Source: a virus. From it: a DNA stretch of 64,000 nucleotides. How positions within the stretch are numbered: position 1 is the first letter of the stretch; every line of letters begins with the position of its first letter. Position numbers and translations under genes: made by a program. Below the pieces are notes generated by a model, which saw only the letters and a list, made by a program, of their open reading frames with translations, made no database searches and was not told the origin of the DNA. Positions 4,690-5,119 of the stretch are shown one piece after another. Where the stretch lies: positions 62,001 through 126,000 of IMG/VR virus record IMGVR_UViG_3300017963_000197; one strand, written 5' to 3'.

Positions 4690-4828
4690 GGTGGCAGACG
4701 TTGGACTCGAACCAACAATTTTGCTTGTGAGCACAGAAGTATTGTTCTCTCGCGAGAACGAGTGTTAGGTGCTGATTGCGTACAAACCTACGTTATGATC
4801 GTAAGCGGGCCACCCGGCCCAGTCTGCC
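4690..4828 (-). ncRNA. tRNA-like RNA with large variable-arm insertion (Met CAT-type)
   Basis: The ends GGCAGAC/GTCTGCC form an acceptor. A D-like hairpin (GGGCC-GGGT-GGCCC), an anticodon arm with loop ATCATAA (CAT) and T arm GTTGG-TTCGAGT-CCAAC follow. About 70 nt separate anticodon and T arms. They contain CTAACACTC, the hairpin GTTCTCGCGAGAGAAC, then CTTCTGTGCTCACAAGC, with outer pairing AGCAC/GTGCT. The same internal module occurs in the permuted RNA next to it. Confidence 0.65.
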
Positions 4829-4837
4829 TAAAATCTT

Positions 4838-4977
4838 CCCGCACCCGAGTCATGAACCTGTTTGATTGCTCGTTTTCTAGACGAGTGCCTAACCACTAGG
4901 CTATTTCCAATAGTTTTGGTTTGGAAAACAGGATTCGAACCTGTGTATGCATGTAAGATTCACCTGTTGGGTACGGG
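4838..4977 (-). ncRNA. Circularly permuted tRNA-like RNA, Y RNA (YrlA-type) candidate
   Basis: The ends CCCGTACCC and GGGTGCGGG pair. Inside, in transcription order: CTTACATGC, T arm ACAGG-TTCGAAT-CCTGT, acceptor 3' strand TTTCCAA, A, CCA, a 6-nt linker, acceptor 5' strand TTGGAAA, D arm GCCT...AGGC, anticodon arm CTCGT-CTAGAAA-ACGAG, then AACAGGTTCATGACTC. All tRNA stems pair, but the 3' half comes first. YrlA Y RNAs, partners of Ro60, are known to carry tRNA-like domains; a Ro60 ortholog is encoded 4 kb away. Confidence 0.75.
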
Positions 4978-4978
4978 T

Positions 4979-5119
4979 TGGAGGGGCTATCGGGAGTCGA
5001 ACCCTAAAACGCTTGTGAGGACCAGAAATATGGCTCCTTGCAGAGCCGAGAATCGATCCTGGGTTTTTGGTTTTTCCTCTTCGATAGAAAGGTGACGGAC
5101 CGTCCGTCTGTATAGCCCC
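4979..5119 (-). ncRNA. tRNA-like RNA with large variable-arm insertion
   Basis: Acceptor GGGGCTA/TAGCCCC, discriminator T and encoded CCA. D-like hairpin GACGG-ACGGT-CCGTC, anticodon arm CCTTT-CTATCGA-AGAGG (loop reads ATC). A ~70-nt arm follows with CGATTCTC, hairpin GGCTC/GAGCC and CTGGTCCTCACAAGC, then T loop TTCGACT. It abuts the permuted RNA by 1 nt, so both are probably cut from one transcript. Confidence 0.65.

Follow-up and report, generated by a model that had tools for sequence, protein, structure and literature searches.

Probable phage Y RNAs in tRNA order: a Y-RNA module in the predicted variable arm of tRNA-like RNAs encoded near a divergent Ro60 homologue

The RNAs described here are predicted to begin and end as tRNAs do and to hold a Y-RNA module between the anticodon and T arms. 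Our reading of them, which we regard as rather probable although there are no expression, binding or processing data, is that they are phage Y RNAs that link the Ro60 ring protein of the phage to a tRNA-shaped module with free tRNA ends. Judged by comparison of sequences alone, the Y stem stands in place of the variable arm in a cloverleaf that has retained a 7-bp acceptor, the T arm, the GG of the D loop and an N-C-C/U 3′ tail, and the RNAs travel with one family of Ro60-like proteins. Phage Y RNAs and Ro60 are already known; what is new, as far as the searchable literature goes, is the combination of free tRNA ends with a module placed in the variable arm. The principal Y RNA papers lie outside its coverage; within it no account of the tRNA-ordered kind was found, in agreement with an earlier note on this DNA, whose author had not seen the arrangement described.

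The window and its source phage

The stretch of DNA analysed (the window, 64,000 nucleotides) comprises bases 62,001–126,000 of a 173-kb IMG/VR viral record. Its sequence is identical in a 416-kb contig, and the source is therefore taken to be a huge phage; the loci L014 and L015 are 100% identical copies of this phage and offer no informative variation. In the window ARAGORN called one tmRNA and more than 40 tRNAs, every one of them on the minus strand; standard tRNAs for most amino acids are present. The phage encodes an RtcB ligase and a CCA-enzyme-like protein, a setting that resembles cellular rsr-yrl-rtc operons. Its closest named relative, Virus Rctr197k, has a Ro60-like protein (57%) and one permuted RNA, and no tRNA-ordered RNA was detected in it.

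Several unusual tRNA-related elements were seen in these genomes. On the plus strand of the window, opposite to all other tRNAs, a tRNA 3′ half ending CGGTCGC-CCCA lies at 14740–14792, possibly an attachment-site fragment. Between tRNA-Val and tRNA-Leu (24520–24590, minus strand), a 10-bp stem TTTCCTAGTA/TACTAGGAAA surrounds a T arm and the palindrome GGGTACCC, and an acceptor/T-arm minihelix without D or anticodon arms, GGTAAG..GAAGGTTCGATTCCTTC-G-CTTACC-GCCA, is found at 31296–31356 (minus strand). Rctr197k carries at L013:38860–38980 (minus strand) a tRNA-Ser(gct) nested in a second acceptor/T arm (GGAATGG..CCATTCC), which is a duplicated 3′ half. Among the coding sequences, six otherwise unlike open reading frames begin with MY[SN]YDRR or a near variant of it (MGYGYDRR, MVYSYDRR), as though they shared an N-terminal tag; they lie at window positions 4228 (−), 4521 (−), 16013 (+), 18632 (−) and 28221 (−), and at L010:5299 (+).

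RNAs of the window

The RNAs were sorted by arrangement into type 1 (permuted, in YrlA order), type 2 (in tRNA order, with the Y module in the variable arm) and type 3 (Y module on the acceptor end); all those located in the window lie on the minus strand. The two type 2 RNAs named in the earlier note, RNA D (4690–4828) and RNA B (4979–5119), were confirmed to the base. Both start and end like tRNAs, as had been proposed, with 7-bp acceptors (GGCAGAC/GTCTGCC in D, GGGGCTA/TAGCCCC in B) and the tails ACC(G) and TCCA, respectively, the ACC of D being directly followed by the next RNA. The expanded variable arm was likewise borne out, a Y-RNA module of about 75 nt standing between the anticodon and T arms of each. 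RNA D has the anticodon arm TACG-ATCATAA-CGTA (loop AUCAUAA), a hairpin as its D arm, and the module ACTC-GTTCTC(GCGA)GAGAAC-12 nt-CTCACAAGC, after which comes the T arm GTTGGTTCGAGTCCAAC; the module of RNA B reads TCTC-GGCTCT(GCAA)GGAGCC-12 nt-CTCACAAGC. In both, the order is 7-bp acceptor, short D hairpin, anticodon arm, ..CUC-hairpin-12 nt-CUCACAAGC and T arm.

A scan for orphan T arms revealed a second cluster at 29678–30478, made up of RNAs of these same kinds and absent from the earlier note; it adds three tRNA-ordered RNAs and one permuted RNA to the window. RNA F (type 2, 30323–30478) has the acceptor CGGGACC/GGTCCCG with ACCA and the module ..AACTC-GTTTC..GAAAC-12 nt-CTTACAAGC, and RNA I (type 2, 29678–29824; z −3.21) has CCCCGCT/AGCGGGG with GCTA and the module ACTC-GCCTCC..GGGAGGC-..-CTTACATGC. 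RNA H (30032–30166; z −3.93) is also in tRNA order, with the acceptor GGGGCTT/AAGCCCC and GCCA; its module is weaker and its anticodon arm is not clear. Neither ARAGORN nor Rfam at the gathering score called B, D, F or I.

The permuted RNA C (type 1, 4838–4977; z −4.88) sits between D and B. The strands of its Y stem, CCCGTACCC and GGGTGCGGG, form its ends, and its acceptor, TTTCCAA-ACCA-AAACTA-TTGGAAA, is closed by a loop that starts with ACCA. RNA G (type 1, 30175–30321; z −3.17) has the Y stem TCCGCGTTC/GAACGCGGA and the acceptor TATTTCC-ACATC-GGGAATA. The third topology, which the earlier note did not contain, is represented by RNA E (type 3, 4564–4689; z −2.25), which abuts D and carries the Y stem GAGAGCG..CGCTCTC on the acceptor end of a tRNA-like body whose parts are in normal order and which scores 47.5 bits as an Rfam tRNA. 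A further type 3 RNA at 31190–31310 (z −1.47) also has its body in normal order, and this body is what ARAGORN calls tRNA-Asp(atc) at 31213–31287. RNA A (5124–5222; z −4.51) is a plain Y RNA without a tRNA-like domain, consisting of the Y stem GTACCC..GGGTAC with a plain hairpin (..ACAGGTTTAGAACTC / ..CTTACACG..). Three ways of linking this module to a tRNA body are present in a single phage.

The module in D and B is that found at the ends of the permuted RNAs, as the earlier note had claimed, and its consensus is common to both kinds. The proposal that the two kinds are opposite circular permutations of one RNA also held: in both, the module is attached at one and the same point, between the anticodon and T arms, and the RNA is broken open in the Y stem in the permuted kind and in the acceptor in the tRNA-ordered kind. 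When the folds were compared side by side, D and C adopted the forms expected, the minimum free energy fold of D being a cloverleaf with a Y arm (z −3.96), but that of B was less clean (z −2.95), with a misfolded T arm.

Relatives and covariation

A DNA pattern (the module beside a T arm) was searched against 2.9 million viral contigs and gave 22 loci, 4 of them ordinary tRNA or coding sequence and 3 copies of the window phage; the initial scan was swamped by tRNA-Val anticodon arms, and the contigs concerned were reused as controls. With the Ro60-like protein as the lead, 62 loci were obtained. Scanning with a descriptor yielded 80 RNAs in tRNA order, of which 78, from 40 huge-phage loci, remained after cleaning, no two of them sharing half of their 8-mers; under stricter scans, 23 RNAs of type 1 and 36 of type 3 were recovered. 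Candidates were selected by pairing in the acceptor and the upper hairpin, and the perfection of these two helices is partly by construction and not independent evidence.

The RNAs lie in tandem, often 2–10 nt apart and most commonly type 2 followed by type 3, and share their strand with the Ro60-like gene, which typically lies 4–8 kb upstream of them. The module has the same consensus in all three topologies, CCAGnnnnnn..CUC-hairpin..CUYACAAGC, with CUC and UACAAGC as the conserved flanks of the Y stem. In type 2 the insert measures 60–90 nt, and each phage has several different acceptor/anticodon combinations. Two further structured RNAs were noticed in such loci: a bacterial class A RNase P RNA (299.5 bits) within the tRNA/Y RNA array of a 363-kb viral contig (L209:18026–18390), and a bacterial small SRP RNA (57.7 bits) right after a permuted Y RNA in a 497-kb viral contig (L141:8566–8658).

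Of 25 pattern matches in bacterial genomes, only 6 contigs (L241, L244, L250, L252, L256 and L263) of 5 metagenome-assembled genomes were real; the rest were ordinary tRNA or coding sequence, and none was found in isolate genomes. These contigs carry phage-type Y RNAs, and are probably mis-binned huge phages.

The lower Y helix, which was not a selection criterion, was paired at 75% in register against 30–40% when slid and 52% with shuffled partners. On a sequence-only MAFFT alignment of 72 type 2 RNAs, 86.4% of cells were paired, compared with 60.2% after shuffling and at most 52% when slid, and double-change cells numbered 274 against 84 in the shuffled control. RNAalifold, unaided, recovered the Y helix and the T stem, and 15 of 16 pairs showed compensatory change. 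A perfect 5-bp/7-nt anticodon arm, also not selected for, is present in 38 of the 78 RNAs against 1.3 expected. By these comparative measures the predicted type 2 pattern is beyond chance, with strong covariation across 78 distinct relatives.

tRNA features of the type 2 and type 1 RNAs

The ends of the type 2 RNAs resemble those of tRNAs. They meet the elongator criterion of a 7-bp acceptor (selected for), a T arm with TTCRA and a CCA-compatible 3′ end; G1-C72 is found in 71 of 78 and the D-loop GG in all 78. C74, the base after the discriminator, is kept in 72/78 compared with 579/632 ordinary tRNAs of the same loci, and an exact encoded CCA occurs in only 17/78 compared with 207/632. Most D arms are compact hairpins and not standard, with canonical D arms retained in some copies (L210, L219, L220 and L223).

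The decoding features are less complete. Of 45 recognisable type 2 anticodon loops, 44 have R37 and 22 have U33 (present in RNA D, absent from RNA F), against U33 in 588/620 ordinary tRNAs of the same loci, and the loops showed no single shared target. Because U33 is so often missing, most type 2 RNAs are unlikely, on present comparisons, to be decoding tRNAs, although some of those that keep it could decode.

The tail of a tRNA can also be recognised inside the permuted RNAs, a signature that the earlier note did not contain. A 7-bp acceptor register is present in 29 type 1 RNAs, and the loop that closes their acceptor starts with N-C-C/U-A: 24/29 have C74, 28/29 have C or U75 and 17/29 have A76, while an exact CCA occurs in 11/29 (binomial P 7e-9, given the C content of the loops themselves). 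The N-C-C/U tail is absent from the three best cellular YrlA loci (loops TTCTGC, ATCTCC and TTCTGT), and the signature is therefore not general to YrlA. It is either a relic of tandem tRNA-ordered copies or a sign that the loop is excised as in two-piece tmRNA, and such excision would make types 1 and 2 equivalent.

The Ro60-like protein

A 627-residue protein encoded at 9242–11125 (minus strand) is predicted to combine a helical TROVE-like ring with a vWA domain bearing a DxSxS MIDAS and an extra N-terminal beta domain. Pfam gave a vWA match and PHROGs gave nothing for this product, and the Pfam TROVE profile, at E values up to 1, matched neither 16 phage contigs nor members of the protein's family. 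The MIDAS residues D434, S436 and S438, together with T497, are invariant in 46 homologues. A model built on these homologues reached a pLDDT of 83, and the helical part alone 89.5.

When the model was searched with Foldseek, ranks 1–6 were TROVE/Ro60 proteins over about 540 columns (E 2.6e-9), one of which is the Ro60 protein from the Thermus phage phiLo; with just the helical part, Foldseek had no match below E 0.001. VIA-align with the helical part alone placed Ro60 proteins at all of ranks 1–8 (Z 8.8–9.6, next 5.9), and with the whole protein it returned vWA domains only. The superposition on Ro60 is loose (TM 0.2–0.3, large rmsd), which makes the protein a divergent member. We identify it as a divergent Ro60 homologue, an identity that rests on the predicted fold, and presume it to be the partner of the Y RNAs, for which there are no binding data.

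The gene and the RNAs occur together. A Ro60-like gene is present in 15 of 16 contigs with the RNA pattern and in all five of the bacterial assemblies with real type 2 RNAs. In the controls it was found in 0 of 19 non-carrier viral contigs (the sole match, L026, proved to be a carrier), and a strong match occurred in 4 of 188 genomes of one phylum, one of them itself a carrier. Y modules were found in 52 of the 62 Ro60 loci, with 167 modules against 11 in shuffled sequence. These counts are not independent, the phages being related. RtcB is encoded in 11 of 18 contigs.

In two of the four genomes the Ro60-like gene is on megabase contigs, and on a 3.2-Mb bacterial contig (G144:C2; L272:11402 and 11637) two permuted Y RNAs lie beside a Ro60-like gene of 46% identity. 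This suggests that the permuted Y RNAs are the wider and older form.

Comparison with known RNAs

YrlA (Rfam RF02553; structure 6CU1 from S. Typhimurium) shares with the phage RNAs the Y stem, parts that resemble the D, T and acceptor regions of a tRNA, a motif with UACA on the 3′ side of the Y helix and a nearby Ro60/Rsr gene. In the Rfam model and in cellular sequences its order is permuted, with the T arm before the D arm as in RNAs C and G, and the tRNA-ordered kind is therefore the unusual one. Type 2 is circularly permuted relative to YrlA, with the acceptor at the ends and the Y stem as a closed hairpin in the variable arm, and it has an anticodon arm, which is absent from the Rfam YrlA and the cellular YrlA compared. 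The YrlA order (T before D, ends paired as the Y stem) is met by C and G and not by type 2. The RF02553 gathering score of 69 bits was not reached, the best match being 21.8 bits to a chimaera of D and E, and no RF02553 match was obtained on the permuted RNA C. The wider criteria for a bacterial Y RNA (a tRNA-like module plus a Y stem with conserved flanks, near a Ro60/Rsr gene) are met. We accordingly class type 2, on its predicted architecture, as a new variant of bacterial Y RNAs and not as YrlA, whose order and Rfam score it does not meet. In known Y RNAs the acceptor is a closed hairpin that cannot act as a tRNA, whereas in type 2 it is free.

Class II tRNAs (Leu, Ser and Tyr) share an extra arm between the anticodon and T arms, and some type 2 copies keep a small arm of this kind before the Y module, e.g. 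GAGC-CAAAA-GCUC. Type 2 differs in an arm of about 60–90 nt with a Ro60-type motif, in the compact D hairpin and in the frequent loss of U33. In two-piece tmRNA from permuted ssrA genes, and in permuted tRNA genes, the acceptor 3′ strand is followed by a CCA-like tail, a short spacer and the acceptor 5′ strand. This permuted order with a CCA-like tail is matched in 24 of the 29 type 1 RNAs, which, unlike two-piece tmRNA, have no reading frame and have ends that pair as a Y stem, and for which there is no evidence of spacer excision.

According to published work, Y RNAs of bacteria link Ro60/Rsr with enzymes, and tRNA enzymes modify the tRNA-like part of these RNAs (PMC8394870; PMC7790460). In RYPER, the Ro60/Rsr–Y RNA–PNPase complex of Deinococcus radiodurans, the Y RNA tethers the ring to the enzyme (PMC8394870; PMC7790460), and the phages share with it a gene for a Ro60-family ring protein beside Y RNAs. 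The phage RNA differs in offering a free tRNA end, and its effector has not been identified.

Discussion

Three of the other explanations carry little weight. The earlier note had stated that its reading would fall if the insert were removed as an intron to leave ordinary tRNAs, and such a reading could draw on the position of the insert, which interrupts a gene that is tRNA-like elsewhere and belongs to a tRNA array, and on the RtcB ligase of the window phage. We find it very improbable, since without the insert half of the RNAs would lack U33 and most would lack a standard D arm, so that most would not be ordinary tRNAs. A group I intron would, moreover, have to be longer than the 60–90 nt of the insert, which is the very Y module that neighbouring RNAs carry at their ends and whose helix and motifs are kept in 78 diverged copies. 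Even less credit can be given to degenerate tRNA genes or chance folds without function, for which the non-standard D arms and anticodon loops and the absence of ARAGORN and Rfam calls for B, D, F and I might speak; the comparative data largely refute it through the covariation, the invariant motifs and the conserved placement downstream of the Ro60-like gene. The RNAs might instead be working elongator tRNAs with a Ro60 handle, e.g. for protecting or sorting the phage tRNA pool. Their tails and acceptors do resemble those of ordinary tRNAs, R37 and U33 are kept in 44 and 22 of 45 loops, and four loci retain canonical D arms. This remains improbable in view of the loss of U33 in half of the loops (5% in ordinary tRNAs), the compact hairpins that replace the usual D arm, and the standard tRNAs that the window already has for most amino acids.

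A decoy function against tRNA-attacking host defences or toxins (anticodon nucleases, CCA-end enzymes), with Ro60 stabilising or delivering the RNAs, deserves more weight, although we still judge it unlikely as the whole explanation. The several acceptor/anticodon combinations per phage and the lack of constraint to decode would suit decoys, the frequency of RtcB suggests that tRNA damage is met, and a decoy role for YrlA has been proposed by others (PMC7790460). Against it, the anticodon loops have no single shared target and direct evidence is lacking; it also overlaps the explanation we prefer and does not exclude it.

Our preferred reading, that type 2 RNAs are Y RNAs linking Ro60 to a tRNA-shaped module, supposes that RNase P and tRNA 3′ processing would release them from tRNA-like precursors and that they would receive CCA. 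Ro60 would bind them through the Y stem, an inference without binding data, and the ring would thereby carry a tRNA mimic with its elbow and acceptor end left free. That they act as Ro60-bound mimics is inferred from the retention of the parts read by RNase P, the CCA enzyme, EF-Tu and the T/D-loop enzymes, with the acceptor left free. A mature tRNA end could be presented to the CCA enzyme, EF-Tu, aminoacyl-tRNA synthetases, end-modifying toxins or exonucleases such as PNPase, and the several RNAs of each phage would offer different acceptors and anticodon loops. The most likely task would be to recruit such tRNA-reading proteins to Ro60 as a tether or to soak them up as a decoy, alternatives that sequence does not resolve.

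The permuted RNAs may be opened at the N-C-C/U-A loop to give two-piece forms of the same particle. The fuller proposal, that RNase P and tRNA 3′ processing open this loop to turn the permuted transcripts into two-piece RNAs, that both kinds of RNA end as one and the same particle, and that CCA-tailed and possibly aminoacylated mimics are displayed on Ro60, is doubtful for now, with no processing data to support it. If true, it would provide a second natural two-piece tRNA-like RNA in bacteria or phages, besides tmRNA, and would mean that a Ro60 machine engages directly with the translation apparatus.

For phage annotation, many such RNAs have been overlooked and some have been called tRNAs. 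tRNA and Y RNA modules can evidently be combined in three ways. The role of the tRNA-like domain in bacterial Y RNAs is a standing question, and a large natural set with free acceptors, beside permuted copies of the same module, makes it directly testable, including whether the Ro60 particle makes contact with the CCA enzyme, EF-Tu, synthetases, PNPase or tRNA-attacking defences.
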